From contig NZ_RHNN01000003.1 in NCBI RefSeq assembly GCF_003946245.1, positions 86,933 through 150,932 on the forward strand: DNA of 64,000 nt, read 5' to 3'. Positions 4,843-58,616 of this stretch are shown here, in pieces; the first letter of the stretch is position 1; each line of letters begins with the position of its first letter. This DNA is from Levilactobacillus cerevisiae (GTDB lineage Bacteria > Bacillota > Bacilli > Lactobacillales > Lactobacillaceae). The notes under the pieces were generated by a model. The model worked only from the letters and a program-made list of their open reading frames with translations. It was not told the DNA's origin and did not search any database. Position numbers and translations under genes: made by a program.

Positions 4843-4899
4843 ACGATATATGATTGTTTAAGTTGGATATAAGACTTGTTTAAGTAGGCCGGCTTACCG

Positions 4900-5104
4900 T
4901 TCGCCAAATTTTAGGCTGGAACGCTGTGGGTAAGAGTGTGGCAGATGGCGGTTAGCTGGTGAGCATTAACGGTGATAACCGAATAATCCTGGGCTTGGAT
5001 TGTTTGGTTATCAGTGTTAAGCGGAGCCAGTTGCCATCTGACACACGTTTCGACAATGAAAAGTTGGCGAACCAAATCCCACGGCTGAGCCTAAATTTGG
5101 CGAA
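4900..5104 (+). repeat. Structured repeat family A, copy A1
   Basis: The closing stem TTCGCCAAATTTTAGGCT (4900-4917) pairs with AGCCTAAATTTGGCGAA (5088-5104). It is followed inward by the family-conserved loop GGAAC and by GCTGTGGG pairing with CCCACGGC. The interior differs from other copies: CAGATGGC pairs with GCCATCTG, enclosing a further ATAACC/GGTTAT hairpin. Flanking GTAGGC (4884) and GCCTAC (5111 region) can extend the base. Not recognised as a named family; see the findings. Confidence 0.75.
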
Positions 5105-5205
5105 CGCACGCCTACGTTGTTGCAATGCCGCTAAACGACAAATGTCGAATGGTAAATGTAGCGTGGCAGAGATGGACACCGACAAAATGGTAAAATACCA
5201 TGCTA

Positions 5206-5391
5206 GCCGGAGGAGGCTGGAGGTGGAGGTAGCTGTGACAACGGCGTTAGCTGAGTGATTTACTCAGGTTACGCCGTGGGACGAGTTTGGAGACTGATGG
5301 TTTTTATCAGTCTTCAAACCGAGCCGGAGGACCGTTCCTTAGGCCGCAGGCGGTCCCCATAGCAACCGGAACCTCCAGCAGCCGCAGGCGA
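5206..5391 (+). repeat. Structured repeat family B, copy B1
   Basis: Closing stem GCTGGAGGT (5216) pairs with ACCTCCAGC (5371). Inside are three hairpins: ACGGCGT/ACGCCGT with an inner CTGAGT/ACTCAG, GTTTGGAGACTGAT/ATCAGTCTTCAAAC, and GGACCG/CGGTCC. It lies about 100 bases after A1 in the same intergenic gap (4792-5405), which holds no credible gene. Confidence 0.7.
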
Positions 5392-22909: not shown

Positions 22910-22975
22910 GTCGTCGTAGAAAACGTAAAATCTGAAATGCTGGCAGCATTGTGCAATCCCGTCGGCTTACCGTTC

Positions 22976-23066
22976 GCCAAATTTAGGCTGGAACGCTGTG
23001 GGCATGACAACCGTGTGGCAATATAAAGTTAAAGAACCAAATCCCACGGCTGAGCCTAAATTTGCC
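22976..23066 (+). repeat. Structured repeat family A, copy A2 (short form)
   Basis: The closing stem GCAAATTTAGGC/GCCTAAATTTGC and the conserved GGAAC and GCTGTGGG/CCCACGGC core are intact. The three inner hairpins are replaced by about 35 unrelated bases, so this is a deletion form of A. Confidence 0.7.
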
Positions 23067-23158
23067 TCACTCATGCCTACATAGAGTTGTCAACGACTTC
23101 GGTGAGTTGGATTGCCACGGTAATGTTCAGCACTGTAGTGGCTAAAACCCAGTCTTAA

Positions 23159-23340
23159 CCGGAGGATGACAGAGATGGAGGCAGCTGTGTCGACGACGTT
23201 AGCTGAGCGATTTTCTCAGGTTACGTCGTGGGACGCGTTTGGAGACTGGCGGTTTTGGACAGGCTTCAAACCGAGCCGGAGGACCGCCTCTCAGGCCGCA
23301 GGCGGTCCCCATAGCAGCCGGAATCTTTGGCAGCCGCAGG
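23159..23340 (+). repeat. Structured repeat family B, copy B2
   Basis: The closing stem CAGAGAT pairs with ATCTTTG, different in sequence from B1 but complementary. Hairpins: CGACGT/ACGTCG with an inner CTGAG/CTCAG, GTTTGGAG.../CTTCAAAC, and GGACCGCC/GGCGGTCC. It lies about 95 bases after A2, the same A-then-B order as at 4.9-5.4 kb. Confidence 0.7.
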
Positions 23341-27013: not shown

Positions 27014-27051
27014 GTGTGAAGAAGGGCGGAACCAGTTGCCCTTTTTCACAC
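27014..27051 (+). terminator. Long perfect hairpin containing the family C loop sequence
   Basis: GTGTGAAGAAGGGC pairs with GCCCTTTTTCACAC (one G-U) around GGAACCAGTT. On the minus strand it includes GGCAACTGGTTCCGC, the signature of repeat family C, so this may be a collapsed C copy. The rest of the 26913-27400 gap shows a GGTTTGG/CCAAACC hairpin near 27240-27261 and nothing else recognised. Confidence 0.5.
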
Positions 27052-27957: not shown

Positions 27958-28016
27958 ACGTGTGGGTAAAAGCTGAAGCGCTGGCAACTTTGGCTAAAAC
28001 TGCCGGCGGACCGTTC

Positions 28017-28165
28017 GCCAAATTTAGGCTGGAACGCTGTGGGTGGGACGGCCCAAGCCGAAAGGCGGTCTTGGGCCTCGCTTTGAACCGCCCAACCCGC
28101 GTTTCAAAGTCGCCATTTTCCAAGAGGACCACATGGAAAATCCCACGGCTGAGCCTAAATTTGGC
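28017..28165 (+). repeat. Structured repeat family A, copy A3
   Basis: Closing stem GCCAAATTTAGGCT/AGCCTAAATTTGGC, loop GGAAC, core GCTGTGGG/CCCACGGC. Three hairpins: GGCCCAAG/CTTGGGCC with loop CCGAAAGGCGGT, CTTTGAA/TTTCAAAG, and ATTTTCCA/TGGAAAAT. It is followed by a degenerate B remnant around 28240-28290 (AGCCGGAG... GCCGCCGG), so the A-then-B order is kept. Confidence 0.8.
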
Positions 28166-28556
28166 TCGCTCACGCCTACATAGAGTGAGGTAACGACTAA
28201 GCGTCGACTGTCACCTCAAACCAGAATTGTGTACTGACTAAAAACTAGTCTTAGCCGGAGAACTGTACCTTAGTCCCGTAGCCGCCGGTATTGACTTTCG
28301 ACTAATTTGATGGCGACAATCCCTACTAGTTAGCTTGATGAGGTCCTTTCAACGCCAGCTAAAGCCTGTGAACATTTGTCACTAGTTGGTAATGCTGGAT
28401 AAGTTACATCGCCGGAATCATTGTTAGGCGGTAGGTCCTGCGATATACTTAATACGTTGAATATATGTCTCAACCAAAAATGACTATATCGAAAATTTGG
28501 TTGGCTAAAAGCGTTAATTTCATTTAGAAATGTCTAATACTGTTTTGGGGGAACTA

Positions 28557-43194: not shown

Positions 43195-43452
43195 ACGTGT
43201 CACCTCACAATCGTTATTAGTTTACCACGATTGACCCTTAAATGGGTAATTAAGTTTGTATTTTTTTCAGCCGGCTAGAACGTGGGTACGGGTTGGCAAG
43301 CGTCTGTGTTGCGGATGAGGCGGTTTTCTAGTATACTGTATGAAATATGAATGTGAGATGGTTGAAGCGACTGCTTTCAAGAACGGCGTCCTCCTTGGGT
43401 TGGGGGGGCCATTTTGAAGCGGCCGTTTTTTTCGTGCAAAGGGAGGAAACTT

Positions 43453-44649
43453 GTGGAACTATTAAAAGATTTAACGCTAATTTTACTGGCAACGACGGTG
43501 GTCGGCCATTACTGTACGCGTATTGGAATCCCCGCCGTTATTGGCCAATTGTTGGTCGGTGTCTTGGTGGGACCGGCTTTACTCGGTTGGATTTCGTTGT
43601 CGCATTCGCTGGAAAGTTTTGCTGATATCGGTGTCATTATTTTAATGTTTATTGCCGGTCTTGAAAGTGATTTGCAATTGTTAAAACGCTACCTGAAACC
43701 TAGTGTGTTGGTGGCCCTGATGGGGGTGTTGATTCCCGTCATCGGAACCTACGCGGTGGGAATGGCCTACAACTTGGGTACCACGGAGAGTTTGTTTATC
43801 AGTGTGATCTTTGCGGCAACGTCGGTGTCCATTTCCGTTGAAGTTCTGAAGGAAATGAACGCGCTGAACAGTCGTGAAGGAACCACCATCCTGGGAGCGG
43901 CCGTCGTTGACGACGTGTTGGCGGTGGTGATCTTAAGTGTGCTGGTCAGCACGACCGGGACCGCTGTTGGCGAAAGCGCTGCGCAATCCAGCAGTCTTTT
44001 ACTAACGACGATTGAACAGATTATTTATTTCGCCGCAATCTACTTCGTCGTTCGGTGGCTGGCACCTTACATGGCCAAGATTGGCGAACGGCTGATGATT
44101 CCGATGGGACCCACGCTGATGGCCATCATTTTGTGTTTCGGAATGGCCTATCTGGCTGAATTAGTTGGCTTGAGCGACGTTGTCGGGGCCTTCTTCGCTG
44201 GAATCGCCATTTCGCAAACCACGGCGCGTTCTACGGTCGATCGGCACATTGAACCAGTGGGCTACGCGTTGTTTATTCCCGTCTTCTTCGTCAGCATCGG
44301 TCTGAACATGGACTTTAACGGGTTGGGCAAGCAGCTAGGTTTCATCGTCGTCCTGACTATCGTTGCCGTGCTTTCCAAATTAATTGGCGCTGGTAGTGGG
44401 GCTAAAATGGCTGGCTTTTCTTGGGCCAGCGCCAATGCCGTGGGCGCCGGGATGGTCTCGCGGGGTGAAATGGCGTTGATCATCGCGCAGATTGGGTACA
44501 CGGCTAAATTGATGTCGCCCGTTCGGTATTCGGCGATTGTGGCGGCAATTATTGTGGCTACGCTGTTGGCACCGTTCCTGTTGCGGTGGACGATGAACAA
44601 GGTGCACCACGCGGACGTCGACCGCTCCAAAGTCCGCCAGGCTGAATAA
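43453..44649 (+). CDS. Monovalent cation:proton antiporter (CPA2 family)
   Basis: This 398-residue membrane protein has about 12 helices. CPA2 features are IGIPAVIGQLLVGVLVGPALLGW near the start, SFADIGVIILMFIAGLESDLQLL, and the ion-binding Asp pair in GAAVVDDVLAVVILS. It exchanges Na+ or K+ for protons. No C-terminal TrkA-N domain is attached. The start is GTG 43453 behind GGGAGGAAA; the open frame to 43414 lacks a ribosome site. Two copies of repeat A follow directly. Confidence 0.9.
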   Translation: MELLKDLTLILLATTVVGHYCTRIGIPAVIGQLLVGVLVGPALLGWISLSHSLESFADIGVIILMFIAGLESDLQLLKRYLKPSVLVALMGVLIPVIGTYAVGMAYNLGTTESLFISVIFAATSVSISVEVLKEMNALNSREGTTILGAAVVDDVLAVVILSVLVSTTGTAVGESAAQSSSLLLTTIEQIIYFAAIYFVVRWLAPYMAKIGERLMIPMGPTLMAIILCFGMAYLAELVGLSDVVGAFFAGIAISQTTARSTVDRHIEPVGYALFIPVFFVSIGLNMDFNGLGKQLGFIVVLTIVAVLSKLIGAGSGAKMAGFSWASANAVGAGMVSRGEMALIIAQIGYTAKLMSPVRYSAIVAAIIVATLLAPFLLRWTMNKVHHADVDRSKVRQAE

Positions 44650-44671
44650 CACTCAGCTGTCTTTCGCCTCC

Positions 44672-44832
44672 GGGCGATTGAAAATTGGGCTGGAACGCTG
44701 GGGGAGGACGCCACGAGCCGTAGTGCGGTCTCCTGGCTTGCTTTGAGCCGCTGGAAAACGCGTCTCAAAGTCACCATTTTCCTGAGGAAAGCGCTCATGA
44801 AAATCCCCGGCTGAGCCCATTTTCAATCGCCC
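44672..44832 (+). repeat. Structured repeat family A, copy A4
   Basis: The closing stem GGGCGATTGAAAATTGGGCT pairs with AGCCCATTTTCAATCGCCC, unlike the A1-A3 stem yet fully complementary. Loop GGAAC; core GCTGGGG/CCCCGGC (changed on both sides relative to GCTGTGGG/CCCACGGC). Hairpins: GCCACGAG/CTCCTGGC, CTTTGAG/CTCAAAG and ATTTTC/GAAAAT. Confidence 0.8.
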
Positions 44833-44921
44833 TGCGGCTGACACTGGCGTAGTTCAGCTGGTCTTGGATGTTTCCCTGGTTTTTAATGGCTCATTTGGCT
44901 TATTAGTCAATTTGCGTTTCC

Positions 44922-45082
44922 GGGCGATTGAAAATTGGGCTGGAACGCTGGGGGAGGACGCCACGAGCCATAGTGCGGTCTCCTGGCTTGCTTTGAGCCG
45001 CTGGAAAACGCGTCTCAAAGTCACCATTTTCCTGAGGAAAGCGCTCATGAAAATCCCCGGCTGAGCCCATTTTCAATCGCCC
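44922..45082 (+). repeat. Structured repeat family A, copy A5 (tandem duplicate of A4)
   Basis: Nearly identical to A4 at a period of 250 bases (unit 44671-44920 repeated at 44921-45170, with only a few differences). The duplicated unit includes about 88 bases after the element (GGCTGACACTGG... TTTGCGTTTC). A third unit is begun at 45171 (CGGGTGACACTGG) and stops. Confidence 0.85.
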
Positions 45083-45227
45083 TGCGGCTGACACTGGCGT
45101 AGTTCAGCTGGTCTTGGATGCTTCTCTGGTTTTTAATGGCTCATTTGGCTTATTAGTCAATTTGCGTTTCCGGGTGACACTGGTTTCGTTCAGCTTCTCT
45201 GACTTCGATTCTTAATAACGTGATAAA

Positions 45228-45286
45228 AAATAATCGTGCGGAACCACGACCCGATTTGGGTGAAGGTGGTTGCTCACGATTTTTTC
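45228..45286. terminator. Terminator hairpin before cadD
   Basis: AATCGTG pairs with CACGATT, with an inner ACCAC/GTGGT, flanked by A and T runs on both sides. It isolates the cadD-like gene from the repeats. Confidence 0.75.
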
Positions 45287-45374
45287 GTGCTTCCTGATAT
45301 TGAGACATCGCCCACAATCACTGCAATCCCGCCAACTACCCACTGATTTTCGACTAGCTTAGGGAATTGCCTAC

Positions 45375-45402
45375 TTGTCGCCACTCCAAAATATGATACA
45401 CT
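45375..45402 (+). promoter_or_regulatory. Promoter of the CadD-like gene
   Basis: TTGTCG and TACACT are 16 bases apart and lie about 40 bases before the start. No clear CadC-type operator was seen. Confidence 0.5.
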
Positions 45403-45442
45403 GCAAATGTAAGAGCTTTCACTACAGATTGGAGTGCCCGTC

Positions 45443-46054
45443 ATGTTCCAGACCATCCTCACCGCCATTTTGCTGTACACCGCCACGGCTGTCGACCTGC
45501 TCGTCATCCTCCTGATTTACTTCGCCCACGTCAAGGACAAGCGCCAATACTTTGACATCTACCTGGGCCAGTACATCGGGTCGGTCGCGTTGATTTTGAT
45601 GAGTTTGTTTTTTGCCTTCGTGCTACATTATGTGCCCGAAAAATGGCTGCTAGGCTTGCTGGGACTGATTCCGATTTACTTTGGGATTCGGGTATGGTTC
45701 GTCGCGGACAGCGGAGAGGACCGGGCCAAAGAACGACTCAACACAAAGGGCCTCAGCAAGCTGACCGAAACCGTGGCAATTGTCACGCTGGGAAGCTGTG
45801 GAGCGGATAACATCGGCTTGTTTGTGCCGTACTTCGTGACGCTGAATCTGCGCGAACTCACGGTGACATTGATCGTCTTTCTTATCATGATCTACCTGCT
45901 GGTCTTCACGGCGCAGAAAATTTCCTGCCTACCCGGAGTGGGCGATTTCATTGAGCGTTACAATCGCTGGGTCATCTCCGTGATTTACATCGGGTTAGGG
46001 GCGTTTATCATTTTAGAAAATGGCACGATTCATTACTTATTAGCTTTGTTATAA
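45443..46054 (+). CDS. CadD-family cadmium resistance transporter
   Basis: This 203-residue membrane protein has about five or six helices and the CadD/Cad family pattern: ILLYTATAVDLLVILLIYFAH, YLGQYIGSVALILMS, and the Cys-containing TLGSCGADNIGLFVPYF with its conserved Asp. It is thought to export Cd2+ or related cations. ATG 45443 is preferred to GTG 45434 because GGAG lies eight bases before it. No regulator gene is adjacent. Confidence 0.85.
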   Translation: MFQTILTAILLYTATAVDLLVILLIYFAHVKDKRQYFDIYLGQYIGSVALILMSLFFAFVLHYVPEKWLLGLLGLIPIYFGIRVWFVADSGEDRAKERLNTKGLSKLTETVAIVTLGSCGADNIGLFVPYFVTLNLRELTVTLIVFLIMIYLLVFTAQKISCLPGVGDFIERYNRWVISVIYIGLGAFIILENGTIHYLLALL

Positions 46055-46063
46055 AACGACAAA

Positions 46064-46099
46064 AAGGGCGTCTGGGACAAAAGTCCCAGACGCCCTTTG
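46064..46099. terminator. Terminator after the CadD-like gene
   Basis: AAAGGGCGTCTGGGAC and GTCCCAGACGCCCTTT are exact 16-bp complements around AAAA. It can work in both directions. Confidence 0.9.
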
Positions 46100-46123
46100 C
46101 ATCTCTAAGTCTATACTGCTGAA

Positions 46124-46205
46124 ACGCGCGACAGAAGGCAACTGGCTCCGCTTAAAACTGACAGCCAAATGTTCACCAGCTAAGTGCCCTCTGTCCCACT
46201 CTGTT
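46124..46205 (+). repeat. Structured repeat family C, copy C2
   Basis: GACAGAAGGC pairs with GCCCTCTGTC, then CTGG pairs with CCAG. The 5-prime loop is CTCCGC and the 3-prime side has TGTTCA in place of TGCTCG. GAAACGCGCGAC upstream matches the GAAATGTGCTAC flank of C1. It sits between the cadD and yfhO genes. Confidence 0.6.
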
Positions 46206-48930
46206 AAAAATGACGTTCCTCTTTCAAATCTCGTTCACGTTTTCTCAATGGTCGTTGCCATTCCACGGTAAACCACAGGAGGATGAAGACGGCGAAACTG
46301 GCCAGACTGATGACCATGCCAAGCTTCAATCCCGGCGTCGTGTACGACAAGACCACGTGGTTCTTTCCCTGTTGCAACGGCACACCAATCATACCCTTGT
46401 AGTTCTGGCGAACTGGAATCAGGGATTGCGCGTGCATCGCCGACTTGATGGCGACCGGCTTGCCGTTGACCGTTGCTGTCCATCCCGGTGTATCGGGAAT
46501 CGACAGGTAGAGGAGTGACCGCTGCTTCGTACCAGTCACGTCACCGGACAACCAGGTCACACCGCTGTTGGCCCGTAGCTTGAGGCGTTGCTGTTTCAAA
46601 CTGTCGACCAACTTGATGTAGCGTTTCTGATTCAATGACGCAAACTGGTTGGTGTAGCCACCCAATGGCTGCTGGGTGAGATAGCTCACCTTGATGACGT
46701 CGCCCTTGGTAAATTGTCCCAGCTTGATCAAATAACGATAGCCGTCTGCCTTAATCATGGGCTTAACCGAGCGACCGTTGACTGCCAGACTGGAGTACAC
46801 GATTGCGTTGGCCGGTGAGTAGGCGTGCAATAGGCCGGTCGCCGTGACCCGAATCTTAAAGGTCTGAACGAAACGTTGGCCCGGAATCTCGGTGGACTTG
46901 GATACCCGTTTCATATCCTTTTCCGTCGCCCGGTGCGTCGTGACTTTCAAAACGTCGACGGGTGACAGCGTGTTCTTCTTAGCTCCTAAAGCGGCTAAGA
47001 TGCGTTGTTGATTAATCATTGCCGCTTGGTCGTCTAGCTGGAGTTTGCCCAGCTTCTTCGGTACCGCAAACCCAATACCCGCGTACGAATCCAATAAATT
47101 AACGGGTTCGGCATTCGATGCGTTCAGCCGGTATTTGACACCCATCAAGGTATCCGTTAAGTGCGAATAGCCCTGGGAACTGATCCGGCGGACGTTCGGA
47201 CTGAAGTAGCCCAGGTCGTGTTGGAAGACCCGCGCCTGCTCAACCAGCGTGGAACTATAGGAGCTGATGCCCGCGTAGTTGTACATAACCGGGTCGTTGT
47301 AGTGATTATAAACGCCGTCATAGGCTTCCCCAATCGCCGAATGACTATAGTCAATTCGGTGCAGGTTCGGCTTCGATTTGCTTGCGGTAATCTTGTCTAA
47401 AATCTTCGTATCCTTATCAAAGGCCTTTTCAAATTTCGGCTGGTTGCCCCATTCCATCCCGCGGGTTGCCAGGAGGAAGTTGCCACCCAATTCAACCGAA
47501 ATCAGCAGGCCCAGCAGGCCTAACCGTACCGGTCGCCATTCACTAATGAAGACCAACATGGTGTTGAGTAGCAACAGACCCAGTGCTGGCCACAGCAAGT
47601 GGAAATTAGGTTGACTCATGATGTATAGATCATGGTTGTAGCTGGGTAGCAGGTGATCCCAAACGACGGGGATGACTTGCGCACTCAGAAAACCGATAAT
47701 CAACAGGCCAGCGCCCCACACGAAGGCAAGCACCTTTTGCGGATCGTTCATGGACTGAGACGGGTGCGTTTGCCAAGCGCGGTAGGCCGTGGTTAATGCC
47801 AAGAACGTGAAAAAGTAGACGTTACGGTACGGGAAGCCGGCTGGTTGTTGGAACATGTGCCAAGCCGTGTTGAACAGTGTGATGAACAGGCCGAGGCCCA
47901 TGACAATTAGGAGCCACATTGTCCGCTTCTTTTCCACCGCATGAATTTGGGGCGAAACGAAGTAAACGATGAGCAACAGAAACATCAGCGTGCCCATGAA
48001 AAGGGACGGCGCGTGGTACAGGTGCGACATGTAATTACTGGTGCCGGGGCCGAATTGGGCCAAAACTTCCGGACCGAACATTGGTGTCGGCAGGTAGTTG
48101 TTGAGGAAGAAGTTACTCTTTCCCGTCAACAGCATGCCCTTAGCCGTTGGAATCAGAACGATCATCGACATCCCGCCAGCCAGCAGCGACCCAATCGTAA
48201 ATTGGCGAATCGCTGGCCAATGCATGTGCCAGACAGTCTTGAATGGCGTGGCGGTTGGTTGATGTTCAACGATTAAATAGATGAAGTACATTACTGAGAA
48301 CAGGCAAGTCATATAACCCATGTAGTAATTGCTGATAATCGTCGCCGTCAAGCTGACCGTGTATAAGCCGTAGCGGTGAAGGCTGACCAGTCGATGCAGT
48401 CCCAAGGCGACCAAGGGTAACCAGATCAGTGAGTCGAGCCACATCATGTCGTAGAAATACATGCTGACGAAGCCACAGAGACTAAACGCCGTGGTGAACA
48501 GCAGCATTGACCAGCCACTCTTCAAGAAGGCGTGACGCATGAAAATAGCCATGGTCAGCCCAATCGTACTAATTTTTAAAATGATAATCCAGGTAATCGC
48601 AATCGGCAGTTTTGTCGCAGAAAACAGGAAGATCAAAAGGTTAAACGGACTGATCACGTAGTACGTTAGTAGGGGAATAATTCCGCTACCAGAACCCAGT
48701 GAAAATGAAAATAAGTGAAATTGACCGTGTAAAATCGTGGCACGTAAATTTTCTAGGATTGGCGCGTATTGCGTCCCCATATCGCTAAATAATAGGTTCC
48801 GGGGCCCAAACGGTGTAATCTTAAGGTGCCAAAAGATTAAGCACAGAATGATAAAAGGAATGAAAAATGCTCCCCCGTACACCCAGCGGCTAACTCTCAA
48901 GGCCGCAAGGGTGTGTCGTTGCTGCTTCAT
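46204..48930 (-). CDS. yfhO: YfhO family membrane protein (glycosyltransferase-like)
   Basis: This 908-residue protein has about 12-14 membrane helices in the first 500 residues, with LLFSDMGTQYAPILENLRA near the start. A large extracellular region follows, then a final helix (VISLASFAVFILLWF). The pattern fits YfhO, a GT-C-like protein that adds sugars to lipoteichoic acid or similar polymers in Firmicutes; the exact sugar is unknown. ATG 48930 follows GGAGGGG; the frame to 48957 is not needed. Confidence 0.88.
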   Translation of the reverse strand: MKQQRHTLAALRVSRWVYGGAFFIPFIILCLIFWHLKITPFGPRNLLFSDMGTQYAPILENLRATILHGQFHLFSFSLGSGSGIIPLLTYYVISPFNLLIFLFSATKLPIAITWIIILKISTIGLTMAIFMRHAFLKSGWSMLLFTTAFSLCGFVSMYFYDMMWLDSLIWLPLVALGLHRLVSLHRYGLYTVSLTATIISNYYMGYMTCLFSVMYFIYLIVEHQPTATPFKTVWHMHWPAIRQFTIGSLLAGGMSMIVLIPTAKGMLLTGKSNFFLNNYLPTPMFGPEVLAQFGPGTSNYMSHLYHAPSLFMGTLMFLLLIVYFVSPQIHAVEKKRTMWLLIVMGLGLFITLFNTAWHMFQQPAGFPYRNVYFFTFLALTTAYRAWQTHPSQSMNDPQKVLAFVWGAGLLIIGFLSAQVIPVVWDHLLPSYNHDLYIMSQPNFHLLWPALGLLLLNTMLVFISEWRPVRLGLLGLLISVELGGNFLLATRGMEWGNQPKFEKAFDKDTKILDKITASKSKPNLHRIDYSHSAIGEAYDGVYNHYNDPVMYNYAGISSYSSTLVEQARVFQHDLGYFSPNVRRISSQGYSHLTDTLMGVKYRLNASNAEPVNLLDSYAGIGFAVPKKLGKLQLDDQAAMINQQRILAALGAKKNTLSPVDVLKVTTHRATEKDMKRVSKSTEIPGQRFVQTFKIRVTATGLLHAYSPANAIVYSSLAVNGRSVKPMIKADGYRYLIKLGQFTKGDVIKVSYLTQQPLGGYTNQFASLNQKRYIKLVDSLKQQRLKLRANSGVTWLSGDVTGTKQRSLLYLSIPDTPGWTATVNGKPVAIKSAMHAQSLIPVRQNYKGMIGVPLQQGKNHVVLSYTTPGLKLGMVISLASFAVFILLWFTVEWQRPLRKRERDLKEERHF

Positions 48931-49120
48931 GAATACCCCTCCGTTGATGACGAACAAATGTCTAACATTAATAGAATAACATGCAGACTACTTTGAGGAA
49001 AGTTTACCGCAAAATTTACGGCTCGCCGCAAAGAACGTGCCAAACTTGGCAAAAACTTACCGTTTAGTAAGGAAACCAACTCAAGTCATTGGGGTTAAAC
49101 TGGTTTTGGACAGCGCCTCC

Positions 49121-49292
49121 GGGCTGGTGAAAATGAGACCGGATCGCTGTGGGCGGGCGCCCGGAGCCAAAGGGTGGTCTCCGGGCTTACTTTGAGCCGC
49201 TTAGGGGCGCGTCTCAAAGATACCAATTGCCTAAGCGGCCAAGCTCCCGCCGCTAAGGCAATTCCCACGGCTTGGCTCATTTTCACCAGCCC
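49121..49292 (+). repeat. Structured repeat family A, copy A6
   Basis: Closing stem GGGCTGGTGAAAATGAG/CTCATTTTCACCAGCCC (17 bp), then CC/GG, loop GGATC opposite TT, core GCTGTGGG/CCCACGGC. Hairpins: GCCCGGAG/CTCCGGGC, CTTTGAG/CTCAAAG, and AATTGCCT/AGGCAATT with inner GCGG/CCGC. Confidence 0.8.
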
Positions 49293-49424
49293 TGCGGCTG
49301 ACGCTGGTTTAGCCCGCAGACTTGATTTGTCCTTACTGGGTGTTTTTTGTGTTTTCAGGCGGGTATTTGGATTTCTGTAGGTGGAGGCTTAGAACTTAGA
49401 CTGTGGACGACTTCCGTTCCCGCC

Positions 49425-49593
49425 GGCGAGTTCAAGTTGTCCTGCTGTGGGGCCCGGTTCCGGCCTGAGGAGCGGTCCTGCACCTCGACTTGAAACCTCG
49501 CAAGACCCGCGAGTTTCCAAGGTCGTCCCATGGCCTAAGCTGAGGAAATCGCTCAGCTAATGCCATCGACACAGCTGGGCACCTTGACTCGCC
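49425..49593 (-). repeat. Structured repeat family B, copy B4
   Basis: In minus orientation. Plus-strand arms GGCGAGTTCAAG and CTTGACTCGCC pair with one bulge. GCTGTGGGG, GGAGCGGTCC, CTCGCAAGACCCGCGAG and CTGAGGAAATCGCTCAG motifs match B1-B3 position by position, while stem sequences differ. Confidence 0.65.
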
Positions 49594-50076
49594 TGTGGTC
49601 ACTGACATAGGTGTACTAAATTTATTGGTGCTGATTCATTCCACGAGTCCCGTGGCTGACACTGGTTTAGTCGACCGACGGCAGGACTCTAGGTGATCGT
49701 CCATCCGGATGGGGACTTGCCAATTCGGACTAGCTTAAACAAACTGTCCCATCAAAGAACTTAAGGTTGCGTTATTGTTAATGGTGTAGGGTATAAGCTT
49801 AATTGGCCTCAAAGCAACCAGCAAGGCGAGCCAACGACTTTACGCTGGCAACATTTTTTCAAAATAGCCGTTGCCAGCTATAGCACCTGCTTAAGAAGTG
49901 TTAGCGCTCTGGCAGAAAGCTCGGGCCTGACCACCAGATGTGGTAAAATTTAGCCAGGCAGCTGAGTTGGCCTGACAGCTAACCCAGGAAAGAAAAAATA
50001 GGATACCCCAAGGAAGAGTGACGGGGAGTACACCTAAATTTTCCGACTTGGTGTTCACCCGCTATGTCAGCCGATA
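49594..50076. other. Intergenic region upstream of the two-component system
   Basis: No credible coding frame. A repeat-flank motif GTGGCTGACACTGGTTTAG recurs near 49670 without a full element. A TAAAAT -10-like box lies near 49950. A hairpin ACACC/GGTGT lies near 50030-50054. Confidence 0.4.
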
Positions 50077-50235
50077 GGGCGGTAAAAATGTACTCAGCCG
50101 TGGGATTTTCTGAGTGGTCTACTCAGAAAATGGTGCCTTTGAGACTCGTTCCTCAGAGGCTCAAAGCAAGTTCAGAGACCGCTTTTCAGGCTCTGGACGT
50201 CCTCCCCACAGCGTTCCAGTACATTTTTACCGCCC
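50077..50235 (-). repeat. Structured repeat family A, copy A7
   Basis: On the minus strand: closing stem GGGCGGTAAAAATGTACT/AGTACATTTTTACCGCCC (18 bp perfect), loop GGAAC, core GCTGTGGG/CCCACGGC. Hairpins: CAGAG/CTCTG, CTTTGAG/CTCAAAG, and ATTTTCTGAGT/ACTCAGAAAAT (11 bp perfect). It points away from the response regulator gene downstream. Confidence 0.8.
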
Positions 50236-50307
50236 GGCAAGGCGCTGGTTATATCAATCTCGTTTTAAAACAAACAACAAAAAGAAAAATATTAGGAGGA
50301 ATGCCCG

Positions 50308-51000
50308 TTGAGTACTACTGCGAAGGTATTGGTTGTCGAAGATGAAAAGGAATTATCCGCGGACATTGTTGAATTAATCTCACCAATCTGTGAAACCACC
50401 ACCGCGTTTGACGGTGAACAGGGTGAGTTCTTGGCCAGTCAGGGTGTCTTTGATGCCATCATTTTGGATCTGATGCTTCCTGGCGAAAGCGGGTTGGATC
50501 TCCTGTTGCACATTCGGAACAAGGGCGTGAAGACGCCAGTGTTGATTCTGACCGCGAAGGATACGATTGCCGATAAGTTGCGGGGCTTCAATGATGGGGC
50601 TGATGACTATGTGACCAAGCCGTTTCACCGTGAGGAATTACTGGCACGCATGAAGGCCCTATTGAAACGCACAGGCCATTTAAACAGCTCCGACGTCATT
50701 ACCCTCGGCCAGTTGGAAATTAACACAGGCAAGCATTTAGCGACCTTTAACGGCGATCCTTTGACATTGAAGGGCCGTGAGTTTGATCTGTTAGCTTATT
50801 TGGTGGCCAATCCCGGCACGATTATCACCAAGGAACAGATTTTTAATCGGTTGTGGGGCTTTGATTCCGAGACCAGCCTGTCCGTGGTCGAAGTCTATAT
50901 GAGCAACCTGCGGAAAGAATTGAAGAATGCCGGCAGTGACCTGTCGTTGCGGACCATCCGGAATGCGGGGTACATCGTGGAGGCCCCCGATGAGCAATAA
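50308..51000 (+). CDS. OmpR/PhoB-family response regulator
   Basis: This 230-residue protein has a receiver domain with phospho-acceptor Asp54 (AIILDLMLPGESG), a Lys in YVTKPF and the TAKD switch. A C-terminal winged helix follows (LTLKGREFDLLAYLVANPG... TIRNAGYIVEAP). The start is TTG 50308, seven bases after AGGAGGA; an ATG at 50301 abuts that site and is out of frame. It overlaps the histidine kinase by 11 bases. Signal unknown. Confidence 0.94.
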   Translation: MSTTAKVLVVEDEKELSADIVELISPICETTTAFDGEQGEFLASQGVFDAIILDLMLPGESGLDLLLHIRNKGVKTPVLILTAKDTIADKLRGFNDGADDYVTKPFHREELLARMKALLKRTGHLNSSDVITLGQLEINTGKHLATFNGDPLTLKGREFDLLAYLVANPGTIITKEQIFNRLWGFDSETSLSVVEVYMSNLRKELKNAGSDLSLRTIRNAGYIVEAPDEQ

Positions 51001-52345
51001 AGTTAATCGCGCCCAACAGTGGCGCTTGTTTTGGAGCAGTTTTATTGGGTTCACGCTCATTTTCGTTTTGCTGGGAGTCATTGTCTTTGTTCTGTTTCGG
51101 CGGACAATTCTGACCAGTACCGATCAGACACTCCGGGTGGAACGGAGCGCACGCTTAGCGGGACCCCCGCGGCAAACGACGCAACCCTTTGGTCAGACCC
51201 AGAGCAACCAGCAGGCGCAGCACCGCGCGTCGATTCATCCATTTATGACGACAACGGTTATCTTTAGTCCGGCCGGTAAAATTTTAAATAAGGCCCAACT
51301 GGGGTCGCGGTATTCCACGTTGAAAAATATTGTGTTGGACACTTCGCAACGTGGTGAACTCCGAACTATTTCGGTCAGTGGCAAATACAATTTCCGAACA
51401 TTGTTGGTTAAGGTCCCCGCTAGCAATGCCGATCAGAGCGTGGCCGGCAAGTACCTGTTGATCATGGAAAATATTGATCCGCAAAAGGCAGCGATGAGTA
51501 CGTTTACCCGGGTCATGTTGATTACGATGGGTGTGTTCTGGCTCCTGTCAATCTTGATGAGTATGTGGATGTCACGCTTGACCATGCGACCAATCTTGCG
51601 GTCGTGGGGGCGGCAGACGGAGTTCGTCGGCAACGCTGCCCATGAGTTGCGGACGCCGTTAACGATTATTCAAAATAAATTGGAATTACTCCTGACGAAA
51701 CCGAACGATAAAATTATTGATCAAGCAGAAAACATTGCGATTGCCAGTAGCGAAAGTCAACGTCTACAGAAGCTTACCCAGGACTTGTTAGCGTTGGCTC
51801 GCTCAGATTCCAATACCCTGCAAACGAACTTTGAAACCACCCACGTGGCCGGCTTCCTGGAACACACGGTGGAACCCTACACGGAAATCGCCGCTAGCCA
51901 GGGTAAGAAGCTGGAATTACTGCCAGTCACGGACTTTAAGGCGATTCTCGATCAAAATCTGATTCACCAATTGATGAATATTCTGATTGATAACGCCATG
52001 AAGTATTCGCCCAAGGGTAGTACGATTACGGTGTCAGCCAAACTGGTGAACCGCAAGTGGCAGTTGATTGTGGGCGACCAGGGGATTGGTATCAAAGAGG
52101 CCGACCGCAAACGGATTTTCGATCGCTTTTACCGTGTCGACACGTCTCGTAGCCGGCAAACTGGCGGAAACGGCTTAGGTTTGTCAATTGCGCAATGGAT
52201 TGTCAGCCTGCACCACGGTACGATTACGGTCAAGGACAACTTGCCGCAAGGAAGTCAGTTCGTGGCGACGCTGCCACTCAATCCCGAGAACGGGTTAACG
52301 CCAGTTGGCGGCCGGAAAAAGACGAAGAAAAAGAAAGTCGACTAA
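50990..52345 (+). CDS. Sensor histidine kinase
   Basis: This 451-residue protein has TM1 at about 14-36 and a long extracytoplasmic loop rich in Gln (FGQTQSNQQAQHRAS). TM2 lies near 180, with a short HAMP-like link. The dimerisation box FVGNAAHELRTPLTIIQNKLE holds the phospho-His. The ATP-binding domain has N box DNAMKYSP, G1 VGDQGIGI and G2 GGNGLGLSIAQWI. The C-terminus is Lys-rich. GGAGG inside the regulator gene precedes ATG 50990. Confidence 0.94.
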   Translation: MSNKVNRAQQWRLFWSSFIGFTLIFVLLGVIVFVLFRRTILTSTDQTLRVERSARLAGPPRQTTQPFGQTQSNQQAQHRASIHPFMTTTVIFSPAGKILNKAQLGSRYSTLKNIVLDTSQRGELRTISVSGKYNFRTLLVKVPASNADQSVAGKYLLIMENIDPQKAAMSTFTRVMLITMGVFWLLSILMSMWMSRLTMRPILRSWGRQTEFVGNAAHELRTPLTIIQNKLELLLTKPNDKIIDQAENIAIASSESQRLQKLTQDLLALARSDSNTLQTNFETTHVAGFLEHTVEPYTEIAASQGKKLELLPVTDFKAILDQNLIHQLMNILIDNAMKYSPKGSTITVSAKLVNRKWQLIVGDQGIGIKEADRKRIFDRFYRVDTSRSRQTGGNGLGLSIAQWIVSLHHGTITVKDNLPQGSQFVATLPLNPENGLTPVGGRKKTKKKKVD

Positions 52346-52364
52346 CAAAATACCGAATTAGTTA

Positions 52365-52398
52365 AGTCCCAGCACAAACTTCTGAGCTGGAACTTTTT
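52365..52398 (+). terminator. Terminator after the two-component system
   Basis: CCCAGC pairs with GCTGG and flanking AGT with ACT, followed by five T. Confidence 0.75.
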
Positions 52399-52412
52399 GT
52401 GTGATTACCAAG

Positions 52413-52444
52413 GGTTTAACCGTTAAGCCACAAACGGTTAAACC
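52413..52444. promoter_or_regulatory. Inverted repeat of two MalR-like operator halves
   Basis: GGTTTAACCGTT and AACGGTTAAACC are exact 12-bp complements around AAGCCACA. Each arm carries the AACGGTT core also seen before malT and the phosphorylase gene. There is no T-run, so regulation is more likely than termination. Confidence 0.45.
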
Positions 52445-52711
52445 TGGAAAAAGTTTCAATGCCGTCGTTTCTATGGTAAGGTGGTTTCATTAAGACATTC
52501 GTCTGCCCGGACATAGCTTCGTATCGACCGAGTTGCTGGTTTACAAGTGCTGGTGTTCTCGATGATTGATGAATGCTATTTTCTCACAGTCTTTAGTCGC
52601 ATTTATTTTTGGATACGTCGGTTCAACGCTACTGTTGTTGGTTTAGCGCTTGGTGGCATGGTTAGAGTGAGGACCAGCTTTTATAACAGCGAACGACGGT
52701 GTGAGCCGTGA

Positions 52712-52874
52712 GGGCGGTAAAAATAGATTCAGCCGTGGGATTCTTGAGTCGGCAGAATGCCGACCCAAGAATGGTGACTTTGAAACGCGGGCTTGGCGGT
52801 TCAAAGCAAGGCCGAAGACCGCACTTTGGCTTCGGCCGTCCTGCCCACAGCGTTCCAATCTATTTTTACCGCCC
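52712..52874 (-). repeat. Structured repeat family A, copy A8
   Basis: On the minus strand: closing stem GGGCGGTAAAAATAGATT/AATCTATTTTTACCGCCC, loop GGAAC, core GCTGTGGG/CCCACGGC. Hairpins: GGCCGAAG/CTTCGGCC, CTTTGAA/TTTCAAAG, and ATTCTTG/CAAGAAT with inner GTCGGCA/TGCCGAC. It lies just upstream of malR in opposite orientation. Confidence 0.8.
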
Positions 52875-52938
52875 GGTAAGGCGCTGATAACAACCAGTCC
52901 AATGAGTAAGTGTAAAAGCATAAGGAGTCTATGAAAAG

Positions 52939-53904
52939 ATGTTAACTATCCGTGATATAGCTGCGAAGGCTGGTGTGTCTGTCTCAACCGCCTCGCGGGC
53001 ATTAAACAACAATCCGCGCATCAGCCAGGCGACCCGGGAACGCATCCAGGCGCTAGCTGAAGCGGAGGGGTACCTCCCCAATTACAATGCCAAAAATTTA
53101 ACGGCGGGCGAGGCCAATGCCGTGGGGGTCGTTTTCCCCACGTCTGACCACAGCCAAACCGAAAATCCCTTCTACATTGACCTGCTACGGGGAATCAACG
53201 GCCAGCTGCTTCAGCGCCATTATGTGCTGTCAGTCGCCATCAGTAAGACCGCCGATGAGCTGTTGGAAAATGTGAAATCAATGGTCGTCCAAGGAAAAAT
53301 CAAGCGGTTCGTCCTGTTTTACGCGCACCGCGATGATCCAATCGCAGCCTTTCTCCGCCAACACCATCTGCGATTCGTCACGATTGGCCAGCCGGCCGAC
53401 AACGCCAACGATTACTTTGTCGACAACGATAATCTGCAGGCCGGCATCGGTGGCGCTAATTTCCTGTTAAACGAGCTGAAGGTGAAGCACCCGGTCTTCG
53501 TGGAGTCCACGCACGATTGGGCCTTCGAGCAACAGCGGCGTCAGGGATACGAGCGGGTGGCTGCCAGCTTCAACGTGGAGCCACTGACCTGCAAGTTGGG
53601 CGAAATTAACCGCGCACGGTTGTTCATCAAACAACATCCAGAAATCGATGGGATTATGGCAACCGATGATTACAACGCCATCGAATTTTATCGTTTGTTG
53701 CGCGAACAATACCACATCACTAACTTTCCAGTCGTCAGCTTCAACCACACGCTACCAGTGGGATTGACGGATGCTGACTTGCATTCGATTAACTTGTTCC
53801 CGGAAAAAATGGGTTCCGCGACGGTCGCCTTATTGTTTAGCGACCGGGAACCATTGGACACACCGACGCCTGGTCAAATTAGAATTCCCTACGAAATCAA
53901 ATAG
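52939..53904 (+). CDS. malR: LacI-family regulator of maltose genes
   Basis: This 321-residue protein has the LacI HTH MLTIRDIAAKAGVSVSTASRALNNN and hinge NAKNLTAGEANAVGVVFP. The periplasmic-binding-type core follows. It precedes a maltose transporter and maltose phosphorylase, so the MalR role is inferred from context. Operator-like sequences with core AAACGGTT lie before malT and the phosphorylase gene. AGGAG precedes the start at modest spacing. A terminator follows. Confidence 0.88.
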   Translation: MLTIRDIAAKAGVSVSTASRALNNNPRISQATRERIQALAEAEGYLPNYNAKNLTAGEANAVGVVFPTSDHSQTENPFYIDLLRGINGQLLQRHYVLSVAISKTADELLENVKSMVVQGKIKRFVLFYAHRDDPIAAFLRQHHLRFVTIGQPADNANDYFVDNDNLQAGIGGANFLLNELKVKHPVFVESTHDWAFEQQRRQGYERVAASFNVEPLTCKLGEINRARLFIKQHPEIDGIMATDDYNAIEFYRLLREQYHITNFPVVSFNHTLPVGLTDADLHSINLFPEKMGSATVALLFSDREPLDTPTPGQIRIPYEIK

Positions 53905-53913
53905 AATTTTCAG

Positions 53914-53960
53914 ACTCACTTAACTGGCGCTAAAGTCAGTGAGCGAGCCTTTTTTGATTG
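53914..53960 (+). terminator. Terminator after malR
   Basis: CTCACT and ACT pair with AGT and AGTGAG, followed by GCCTTTTTT. Confidence 0.75.
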
Positions 53961-54015
53961 TCACGCACACCAATTTAAAACTGGAACGGTCCAAAAAAGT
54001 TGCAAAAAGTTTTGC

Positions 54016-54027
54016 GCAAACGGTTGC
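54016..54027 (+). promoter_or_regulatory. MalR-type operator overlapping the malT promoter
   Basis: GCAAACGGTTGC is a LacI-family operator (GCAA-NCGN-TTGC). Its end overlaps the -35 TTGCAT (54024-54029), which is 17 bases from CATAAT (54047-54052). Confidence 0.65.
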
Positions 54028-54057
54028 ATAAAGATAAAAGCGGTGCCATAATGATTC

Positions 54058-54072
54058 ATGTAATCGTTTTCA
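54058..54072 (+). promoter_or_regulatory. cre (CcpA) site at the malT transcription start
   Basis: ATGTAATCGTTTTCA matches WTGNAANCGNWNNCW at every position and lies just after the -10 box. Confidence 0.7.
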
Positions 54073-54110
54073 GCAATTATTTAAAAGCAGATTTTGAGGA
54101 GGTTTTTTAT

Positions 54111-55484
54111 ATGTCAGATGTTGCGTCTGAAGATACATCGGCGGAAGCCGCAAGTAAGAAAAATGGCTTGCCAAAACTCCCTGCCAGCACAATTTGGATG
54201 ATCAACTTTGGTTTCTTGGGGGTTCAAACGGCCTTCACGTTACAAAGTTCTCAAATGAGTCGAATCTTCCAAACTATTGGGGCTGACCCGAACAGTTTAG
54301 GGTGGTTCTTCATTTTGCCACCATTGGCTGGTTTAATCGTTCAACCAATCGTTGGGTACTATTCCGACAGAACTTGGGCACCAAAATGGGGTGGCCGGCG
54401 GTTGCCTTACCTGTTACTCGGGACAATCGTTGCCGTCATTGTTATGTGTCTGTTGCCTAACTCAGGGAGTATGGGCTTCGGGTATGCGTCGCTAGCAGCT
54501 TTGCTGTTCGGTGCCATCACCGTTGCCTTCCTGGACTTGTCTTCTAACATTGCGATGCAACCATTCAAGATGATGGTTGGGGACATGGTTAACGATGACC
54601 AAAAGAGTTACGCTTACGGGATTCAAAGTTTCTTATCCAACACGGGTGCCGTTTTAGCTGCCATCCTGCCATTCCTGTTCGCCGCAATTGGTATCGCTAA
54701 CACGGCCTCCAAGGGTGTTGTGCCTTCAACAGTTAAGGTTGCTTTCTATGTTGGGGCTGTCCTGTTAGTCATCACGAGTCTCTTCACTATCTTCCGGGTC
54801 CATGAATACGATCCAGATACCTATGCGAAATACCATGGGATCACCAAGGAAGATAACGCTGAAGGTGGGAACTGGTGGACGTTACTGAAGTCAGCACCAA
54901 AGGTTTTCTGGACCGTTACCTTAGTTCAATTCTTCTGCTGGGTTGCCTTCCAATACCTGTGGACTTATTCCGCTGGTGCCATTGCTTCTAATGTTTGGCA
55001 CACGACCAACGCCGCATCCGCTGGCTACCAGGCTGCTGGTAACTGGTACGGGGTCTTAGCCGCCGTTCAATCTATCGCTGCTGTTATTTGGTCATACGTT
55101 TTGGCTAAATTGCCTAACAGTGTTCACAAATTGGGTTACGCTGGTAGTTTAGGCTTAGGTGCCGTTGGGTTCATCTCCGTCTTCTTCGTTCACAACCAAT
55201 ACGCTTTGATCATTTCATTCATCTTAGTTGGGATTGCTTGGGCTGCGATGAACACTTACCCATTGACCATGGTTACCAACGCCTTATCCGGTGCCCACAT
55301 GGGGACTTACCTGGGCCTGTTCAACGGTTCAATTTGCTTACCACAAATCGTTGCTTCCCTGGCTAGTTTCGCTTTGTTCCCACTGCTCGGTGGTGCTCAA
55401 GCCAACATGTTCTTGTTAGCTGGGATTATCATGGCCATCGGTGCCTTATCCGTCGGCACCATCAAGGAAACTTACAAGGCTTAG
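54111..55484 (+). CDS. malT: Maltose transporter, MFS/GPH type
   Basis: This 457-residue protein has 12 helices and the SLC45/MalT-like sugar:proton symporter pattern: INFGFLGVQTAFTLQSSQMSRIFQ, then QPIVGYYSDRTW and GGRRLPYLLLG after helix 2. LDLSSNIAMQPFKMMVGDM follows. It imports maltose for the phosphorylase downstream. GAGGAGG precedes ATG 54111; 37 more codons are open upstream but overlap the promoter and cre. Confidence 0.9.
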   Translation: MSDVASEDTSAEAASKKNGLPKLPASTIWMINFGFLGVQTAFTLQSSQMSRIFQTIGADPNSLGWFFILPPLAGLIVQPIVGYYSDRTWAPKWGGRRLPYLLLGTIVAVIVMCLLPNSGSMGFGYASLAALLFGAITVAFLDLSSNIAMQPFKMMVGDMVNDDQKSYAYGIQSFLSNTGAVLAAILPFLFAAIGIANTASKGVVPSTVKVAFYVGAVLLVITSLFTIFRVHEYDPDTYAKYHGITKEDNAEGGNWWTLLKSAPKVFWTVTLVQFFCWVAFQYLWTYSAGAIASNVWHTTNAASAGYQAAGNWYGVLAAVQSIAAVIWSYVLAKLPNSVHKLGYAGSLGLGAVGFISVFFVHNQYALIISFILVGIAWAAMNTYPLTMVTNALSGAHMGTYLGLFNGSICLPQIVASLASFALFPLLGGAQANMFLLAGIIMAIGALSVGTIKETYKA

Positions 55485-55515
55485 GGTTTTAAACGGATGT
55501 TGGCAGCGCCTTAGC

Positions 55516-55675
55516 GGGTGCTGAAAATGGGACCGGAACGCTGTGGGCAGGACGCCCGGAGCCAAAAGGCGGTCTCCGAGCTCGCTTTGAACCACGAAAT
55601 TCACGTGTTTCAAAGGCGCCAGTTACTCCGCTGACCGCGCAGTAACTCCCACGGCTTGGCCCATTTACAGCACCC
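55516..55675 (+). repeat. Structured repeat family A, copy A9
   Basis: Closing stem GGGTGCTGAAAATGGG/CCCATTTACAGCACCC (one internal mismatch), then CC/GG, loop GGAAC opposite TT, core GCTGTGGG/CCCACGGC. Hairpins: CGGAG/CTCCG, CTTTGAA/TTTCAAAG, AGTTACT/AGTAACT. It lies between malT and the phosphorylase gene. Confidence 0.78.
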
Positions 55676-55682
55676 ACACGGC

Positions 55683-55848
55683 TAACATTAGTTTAAACCA
55701 GCTTGTAACCTTTCTTGATTGCTTGTTGGGCTTAACTTTGTGAGAGCTTCACGGCTGTTGGGTTGCCGTAACAGGTGACATCAGTTTAAACCAGCTGGCA
55801 AGGCTTCTTGATTGCTTGTTGGGCTTCACTTTCGTAGGCACTCAGTGG
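55683..55848 (+). repeat. Direct repeat (about 60 bp, period about 100) downstream of A9
   Basis: CATTAGTTTAAACCAGCTTG...TTGATTGCTTGTTGGGCTT at 55688 recurs as CATCAGTTTAAACCAGCTGG...TTGATTGCTTGTTGGGCTT near 55788, with about 85 percent identity by eye. The first half matches the GACACTGG...TTCAGCTGG flank that follows A4 and A5. Confidence 0.65.
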
Positions 55849-55946
55849 ATGCCATGATTGTATCTGCTGGGGTTCCCTGCTAATAAATCTTATAATGTAC
55901 GTACAACCGGTTGGGCAACTTCAACCGGGAGGCAGCCCTGGGGCTT

Positions 55947-55954
55947 AACCGTTT
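55947..55954 (-). promoter_or_regulatory. Candidate MalR half-operator before the phosphorylase gene
   Basis: AACCGTTT (AAACGGTT on the minus strand) within CTTAACCGTTTCGG matches the core of the malT operator, about 80 bases before the start. Confidence 0.35.
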
Positions 55955-56035
55955 CGGCTGACCACTTCGCTGCCTTTTATTTAAACGATGATGTGTTTTT
56001 TACCGCAAACATTTTGAAAAGGAGACATGTTTAGC

Positions 56036-58433: not shown

Positions 58434-58616
58434 ACCTGCGGCTGCCAGAAATTCCGTCTGCTGTGGGGACCGCCTGCGGCCTGGGGAGCGGTCCTCCGGC
58501 TCGGCTTGAAGCCTGTCAAAAGCCGCCAGTCTCCAAACGCGTCCCACGACGTAACCTGAGAAAATCGCTCAGCTAACGTCGTCGACACAGCTGCCTGCAT
58601 CTCTGTCCTCCTCCGG
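58434..58616 (-). repeat. Structured repeat family B, copy B3
   Basis: In minus orientation. CAGAAAT/ATCTCTG closing stem (one mismatch), GCTGTGGGGACC, GGACCGCC...GGAGCGGTCC hairpin, GGCTTGAAGCC...CTCCAAAC hairpin and ACGACGT/ACGTCGT hairpin with inner CTGAG/CTCAG. It is very close to B2. The rest of the gap to 58945 shows no gene. Confidence 0.7.

Follow-up and report, generated by a model that had tools for sequence, protein, structure and literature searches.

A branched intergenic repeat family of Levilactobacillus as a possible 3′-UTR RNA element

A stretch of 64,000 nucleotides from the genome of Levilactobacillus cerevisiae, referred to throughout as the window, carries in its intergenic regions nine copies of a multi-branched repeat, family A, in which the sequence of several helices changes from copy to copy while pairing is kept. 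The question raised by this locus is whether such a family is a functional RNA, a folded DNA or a mobile repeat. Our preferred answer, to which we give a probability somewhat under one half (about 0.45), is that family A may be an RNA element of 3′-UTRs that has spread as a repeat. We favour a function as RNA because its conserved columns barely diverge between species at a given locus and because copies are placed behind stop codons in a strand-specific manner. The original prediction had argued for a functional RNA, or else a folded DNA, from conserved structure; the RNA reading is still the one that we think most likely, although covariation by itself is no proof of it. The reason is that single-sided changes show no preference for G-T and that paired changes cluster in blocks, as template switching in DNA would give. 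If this answer is right, Levilactobacillus possesses a large family of RNA or DNA elements, missing from Rfam, that prefers sites behind genes.

Copies in the window and their fold

All nine predicted copies were found in place when the sequence was re-examined (Table 1). Seven of them (A3 to A9) are full copies, and the covariance model derived from their MAFFT alignment, made blind to structure (R1), scores them at 150–167 bits; A1 and A2 are altered. A4 and A5 together form a 250-nt tandem duplication, 98% identical, at window positions 44662–45161. Inside A1 (window ~4935–5060) lies a third repeat (GCGGARCCAGTTGCC...CACGTTTC), with similar stretches at 27026 and 41820, and a copy related to it occurs in genome G020 where its relative G043 has a different hairpin.

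Table 1. Family A and family B features in the window. Positions are counted from its first letter; scores are in bits with the covariance model R1.
Feature	Position	Strand	Score (bits)	Remarks
A1	4899..5106	+	54.2	5′ and 3′ cores intact; crown swapped for another repeat
A2	22972..23071	+	44.3	three hairpins missing
A3	28013..28170	+	151.7	full copy
A4	44673..44832	+	157.5	full copy; 24 nt past stop codon of ORF 43414–44649
A5	44923..45082	+	158.0	full copy; tandem duplicate of A4
A6	49122..49292	+	150.3	full copy
A7	50076..50235	-	166.5	full copy; opposite strand, 73 nt before start of ORF 50308–51000
A8	52711..52874	-	157.7	full copy; opposite strand, 65 nt before start of ORF 52939–53904
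A9	55516..55676	+	163.9	full copy; 32 nt past stop codon of ORF 54000–55484
Family B copy	49425..49594	+	36.3	from fold
Family B copy	5211..5383	-	31.0	from fold; repeat with 23163..23335
Family B copy	23163..23335	-	26.2	from fold; repeat with 5211..5383
Family B copy	58440..58600	+		from fold and repeat; absent from R1 matches at E 0.01
End of ORF 54000–55484	55461..55478	+		ATCAAGGAAACTTACAAG, compared with ATCAAGAAAGGTTACAAG on the other strand
A9 outer 3′ arm, putative decayed inverted gene end	55702..55719	-		CTTGTAACCTTTCTTGAT, mirrors ATCAAGGAAACTTACAAG

The closing stems, the GGAAC internal loop, the 8-bp stem and the three hairpins are as first described, apart from A4 and A5, which carry GCTGGGGG/CCCCGGC. 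Overlooked in that description was that the pairing runs further outward than the closing stem, by way of a conserved loop with GCCTCC or GCCTTACC as its 5′ strand and TGCG or TCAC as its 3′ strand. Counted in 54 of 55 copies, the outer 5′ motif (GCCT/GCTT) was present in 48, against 16 in a distant window, and the outer 3′ motif (CGGC/ACGCC) in 47, against 2. The element therefore has a core of ~160 nt and reaches about 240–250 nt with its outer arms. Its crown is formed by helices P2–P5, and the parts conserved in sequence are the GGAAC loop, P2 with a U-G pair (retained in 102 of 124 copies), the tip of P3 (AGCC..GCGGUCU) and P4 (CUUUGARCC..GUYUCAAAG). The proposal that structure is kept rather than sequence is borne out in the variable helices.

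Covariation was assessed at two depths. With the structure-blind alignment of the seven full window copies, RNAalifold predicted 57 pairs, 25 of them changed on both sides. In a larger alignment, for which several species supplied 124 copies, the paired cells amounted to 94.9%, compared with 79.2% after shuffling and at most 48.4% with slid structures; 44 of its 56 pairs had changed on both sides, the both-side-changed cells numbered 1125 against 310 in shuffled data (0 of 500 shuffles reached 1125), and every measure exceeded all 500 shuffles. Because the larger alignment had itself been fitted to the model, the seven-copy result is the independent one. The predicted covariation was further upheld by our own implementation of an R-scape-like test with a tree-based null (100 rows of less than 93% identity, 152 columns), in which 22 of the 23 column pairs that reached significance lay within the fold. 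The sole pair outside it, columns 39/111, lies between the P2–P3 and P4–P5 linkers and could be due to a tertiary contact or to differences between subfamilies.

A related family B is represented by four copies in the window. Folding indicates that it has the P3 and P4 hairpins in common with family A and that its outer loop strands are swapped, a modelled layout suggestive of an inversion of the core between its arms.

Abundance, distribution and known repeat families

Family A is abundant in the window's own genome (G000, 3.38 Mb in 82 contigs). Of 833 candidates, 150 were scored with R1 and all 150 matched (E 5.6e-34 to 3.1e-18), so that a model built from the window alone recovers at least 150 copies. 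Within 443 kb of this genome, 55 copies scored above 100 bits, from which the total would be about 420 by extrapolation; a second group at 24–75 bits consists partly of antisense matches to the same copies and includes family B.

Beyond this genome, R1 matched 24 of a set of 40 genomes, G000 included, at E 0.001. Nearly all of the sampled Levilactobacillus were among them (23 of 24, the best E being below 1e-20 in 13), and there was a single match outside the genus, at E 9.1e-4. In a wider search of 301 Lactobacillaceae genomes, of the kind suggested in the original prediction, in which at most nine candidates were scored per genome under stricter filters, 57 genomes from 10 of 40 genera had matches at 1e-6. 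Judged by the best match per genome, only Levilactobacillus and G336 (genus g52) exceeded 100 bits. Twenty stretches and 17 folds from weak matches in other genera were inspected, and they showed the same kind of fold, with a P3 hairpin of AGCC..GCGGTCT or near variants. At least three loci of Lactiplantibacillus mudanjiangensis also match an exact family A pattern at the sequence level, among chance places elsewhere.

The P3 signature is a convenient measure of how uneven this distribution is. G000 has it at 216 places (the reversed pattern at 3) and G253 at 195; it is found 185 times in G160 (genus g33) and 0–1 times in four congeners of G160, 52 times in G270 (genus g18) and 0–6 times in sampled g18 congeners, and within Levilactobacillus it drops to 4–8 in G042, G016 and G005. 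In 172 genomes from outside Lactobacillaceae it reached at most 6 per genome, near the control level. One family A copy (231 nt) used as a blastn query found no match in the plasmid and phage collections. Since elements sharing P3 are so patchily distributed across Lactobacillaceae, the family was probably spread horizontally and then amplified, which we take as the simplest reading of the sequences.

It had been argued that a simple MITE would keep its terminal repeats and that the conservation of structure therefore speaks against a mobile repeat. This argument fails, given the conserved outer motifs, the at least 150 copies and the patchy distribution. The outer ends of the element pair and have the loop motif in common (48 and 47 of 54), but the arm sequence is not the same from copy to copy.

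Family A has no match in Rfam 15. At gathering threshold there were no matches in the 64-kb window, and at E≤1 positions 44600–56000 gave two weak miRNA matches, both at 46059–46100 and outside the copies. Nor did we find the family in open-licence papers on intergenic, stem-loop or palindromic repeats of Lactobacillus or Levilactobacillus, as far as their titles and the first lines of their abstracts go; PMC2267715 has an entry for a repeat family of L. johnsonii, Lac-1.

Several known repeat families resemble it in part. REP palindromes are linked to RAYT transposases, and REP and BIME are, like family A, extragenic palindromes in high copy number. A REP measures 20–40 bp and bears a GTAG or CGTC tag in the account of PMC3733652, compared with 160–250 nt for family A. 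Membership of REP/RAYT was rejected on account of the 160-nt core and of the Y1 transposase domain PF01797, which is absent from 12 of 35 Levilactobacillus genomes, namely copy-rich G012 and 11 others. The repeats bcr1–bcr18 of the Bacillus cereus group are intergenic and structured as well; bcr1–bcr3 are described as MITE-like, with about half of the bcr copies transcribed, in UTRs or operons (PMC3446304). A table in PMC2267715 gives bcr1 as 147 or 167 nt with 31 copies, against at least 150 for family A, and the portions of these descriptions available to us contain no branched P3/P4 crown. In kind, the element that we propose resembles bcr1 or ERIC/IRU. The latter is a stem-loop repeat that is co-transcribed with genes and affects mRNA stability according to its orientation (PMC2229807). 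In enterobacteria it measures 127 bp and has terminal repeats of 7 bp, whereas family A is ~250 nt long and branched, and differs in arm sequence among its copies.

Three candidates for the machinery that moves the family were likewise rejected, since for each of them, Y1 transposase, reverse transcriptase and integron integrase, there are copy-rich genomes without it. Reverse transcriptase (PF00078) was present in 7 of 16 genomes and in neither G000 nor G043, despite their many copies, and we therefore discarded a retroelement such as a group II intron or retron.

Placement behind genes and turnover between species

Positions relative to genes were taken for 155 copies drawn from four genomes (eight stretches), without collapsing orthologs; greedily picked ORFs of 80 aa or more stood in for called genes. 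Sixty-two of the 83 copies with a same-strand upstream gene begin within 60 nt past its stop codon, while the mirror arrangement, a 3′ end no more than 60 nt from the stop codon of an opposing gene, is seen in only 4 of 64. Among 72 copies with a divergent upstream gene, the start of that gene is at most 60 nt away in 12 and 61–120 nt away in 24. By orientation, 57 of the 155 copies are in sense between same-strand genes and 26 lie between convergent genes; the stop-codon arrangement holds for 62 of the 155 overall, and this share, together with the 34 copies between divergent genes and the 38 antisense to both neighbours, counts against a 3′-UTR element.

One explanation for sites behind stop codons would be that the element is itself the transcription terminator of the upstream gene. 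In keeping with this, no intrinsic terminator lay within 120 nt in any of 49 near-stop genes, and of the 22 with one within 400 nt, seven have it at 151–209 nt, inside the element. Against it stand the remaining 15, whose terminators lie at least 237 nt past the stop codon, the 3′ side of the outer arm, where no steady T-run was seen by eye, and the frequency of terminators within 400 nt, about the same in genes without the element (151 of 317). We consider termination by the element very improbable. The similar frequency of terminators counts against the 3′-UTR reading too, as do the seven that fall inside the element.

Integron attC sites also lie behind stop codons in a set orientation and keep structure over sequence. 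On this analogy the element would act as a folded single strand with the stop codon in its outer arm, gene and site being mobile together. Place, orientation and structure agree with such a site, yet no integron integrase (TIGR02249) rose above cut-off in any of 16 genomes and the gene neighbours of copies stay in place between species, so that this idea, already disfavoured, has next to no chance of being correct.

To see how copies fare where they sit, we compared G020, G043 and G012, which are ~91–92% identical to one another. At 29 loci, each taken from one species pair, with conserved and variable columns defined from other copies, 28 of 1746 conserved positions differed (1.6%) and 216 of 1488 variable ones (14.5%), with 103 of 1147 in the intermediate columns. 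When conservation was defined in G000 instead (28 pairs), the counts were 33 of 1539 and 214 of 1700. Differences in conserved columns were 17 of 844 near stop codons and 11 of 902 far from them. Such a contrast within one locus indicates that copies are under selection where they sit. Codons provide a yardstick, with differences of 14.4–18.8% at third and 1.7–2.1% at second positions; the conserved part of the core is therefore kept much like protein sequence, and the remainder drifts. The core taken together has diverged by 5.8–8.8%, about like the other alignable intergenic DNA nearby (8.7–9.8%) and thus not much more conserved, and the outer arms by 11.1–14.0%. The divergence of the whole core is a further point against the 3′-UTR reading.

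Copies are also lost. At shared flanks, full copies of G020 were present in G043 at 25 loci and absent at 14, those of G020 were present at 15 and absent at 9 in G012, and those of G043 were present at 14 and absent at 8 in G012. At least 14 of 23 present/absent comparisons among these genomes, some loci being compared twice, retain a piece of the element. Many absences are therefore deletions and not fresh gains, and recent movement in G020, G043 and G012 is unsupported. One clean empty site, with TAATTA repeated at the junctions, was found on comparing G020 145799 with G043; other candidate empty sites had no target duplication or were deletion remnants. The loss of full copies, 14 of 39 between G020 and G043, is another observation that counts against a 3′-UTR function.

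These data bear directly on the possibility that family A is a selfish MITE-like hairpin with no host function, whose copies behind stop codons are those at harmless sites and whose arms covary only as a side effect of template switching from one to the other. Its copy number, its tandem duplicates and its scattered occurrence, in several genera confined to single species, are what one would expect of such an element, as are the conserved outer motifs, the lack of a G-T preference in the stems (see below) and the clean TAATTA site. Neutral survival leaves unexplained why the 5′ end is found at stop codons in 62 of 83 cases and the 3′ end in 4 of 64; moreover, in old copies the columns conserved across the family have changed about as slowly as second codon positions, and the remnants in at least 14 of 23 comparisons mark many absences as losses. 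We regard a purely selfish repeat as possible, though rather doubtful.

Under the preferred 3′-UTR reading, the transcript of the upstream gene would run through the element, as suggested by the 15 of 49 genes whose first terminator lies beyond the core, and would fold into the crown P2–P5. The conserved parts (GGAAC loop, P2, P3 tip and P4) would then bind a putative protein or shield the 3′ end, which would set the stability of the mRNA. The long arms would stay complementary partly through template switching during replication, one arm being copied onto the other, and the family would probably have spread through the genome by a mobile process.

Changes in the stems and copied gene ends

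Across the 29 loci we counted 53 paired Watson-Crick changes, against 2.7 expected if the two sides changed independently. Another 77 pairs were Watson-Crick in one species only, and in the second species they were G-T in 24 cases, A-C in 31 and other combinations in 22; 10 further changed pairs fit neither class. Variable paired columns change as fast as variable unpaired ones (14.51% and 14.53%). If selection for pairing acted alone, paired columns would be expected to evolve more slowly and G-U to be preferred. Single-sided changes with no preference for G-T, unlike those of RNA helices, count against the RNA reading.

Paired changes were also clustered. Adjacent double changes numbered 13 in P1 against 2.6 ± 1.4 under the null, 5 in P5 against 0.6, and 2 in P3 against 0.3 (p 0.03), the test for P1 resting on 7 loci. 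After loci more than 12% diverged had been dropped, 22 loci with 14 doubles were left, and the signal persisted in P1 only (2 adjacent, p 0.002, 3 loci). The clearest case is the locus G020 71809/G043 114585/G012 101756, where both P1 arms of G043 differ as a block and P3 and P4 show no difference. Exchange between copies could explain part of the paired changes, especially at the most diverged loci.

The overall pattern is what template switching predicts. Multi-base compensatory changes and reverse-complement copies have been attributed to it by Monttinen and Loytynoja 2022 (PMC8794818), and the block changes and inverted copies of family A are of the same kind. The system treated in that source is rRNA genes, in which 78.5% of two-step changes touch G-U pairs; in the dispersed repeats of family A, 24 of the 77 single-sided changes are G-T, a measure not identical to theirs. 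Where both strands of a helix have changed as a block, errors of DNA copying could, besides selection, have rewritten the hairpin, and covariation by itself need not imply a functional RNA.

Near-perfect Watson-Crick pairing, with A-C intermediates as many as G-T, would also suit the folded DNA originally offered as an alternative, i.e. a cruciform or single-stranded hairpin recognised by a protein or recombinase and serving chromosome organisation or its own movement. The swapped outer loop strands of family B point the same way, being what an inversion between the arms would give. Such a reading has difficulty with the marked preference of copies for one orientation with respect to the upstream gene and with the conserved T-G pair, a mismatch in DNA; in addition, Y1 (HUH) transposase is missing in copy-rich G012 and reverse transcriptase in G000 and G043. 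We consider a DNA-level function improbable.

Inverted copies of gene ends were a second sign of copying. For 38 distinct gene ends, the 3′ flank of the element contained an inverted copy of the gene end above the 99% null level in 9, where 0.4 were expected (Mann-Whitney p 5e-9), and none above that level in the other 29; an earlier test across all copies had given 11 of 96. The likely source would be a polymerase that primed itself or switched template at the hairpin and copied the gene end into the outer 3′ arm. At A9 (Table 1) the mirror score is 21, the 99% level of shuffles. At the orthologous sites with the element in G020, G043 and G012 it is 13–14, in the same place and below the null, and in G003, element-free at this gene, a score of 13 falls in a different place. 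The low scores of the three relatives that carry the element, like the 29 gene ends without a copy above the null, count against the preferred reading.

A bolder version of the 3′-UTR reading, which we hold unlikely, is that the several hundred copies make up one genome-wide 3′-UTR system served by a single factor, with helices rewritten in blocks by template switching and gene ends copied. Were it true, perfect covariation would arise almost as fast as synonymous change and with no wobble intermediates, and hundreds of mRNAs would bear the same fold. With dozens of orthologous copies per species pair, family A would also offer a natural experiment on whether compensatory changes come from selection or from template switching during replication, to which arms that are block-changed at some loci and inverted gene ends of traceable source are well suited.

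Duplicated stretches were also noted. Window positions 55771–55832 are a second copy (84%) of the 3′ flank of A9, which may be what is left of a tandem copy since lost, and close pairs of family A occur elsewhere in G000 at L150 8967/9243, L143 6674/6987 and L147 14344/14564. The neighbouring ORFs 28530–29648 and 29735–30832 (372 and 365 aa) have stretches of 70–92% DNA identity in common and are, on that account, probably a tandem gene duplication.
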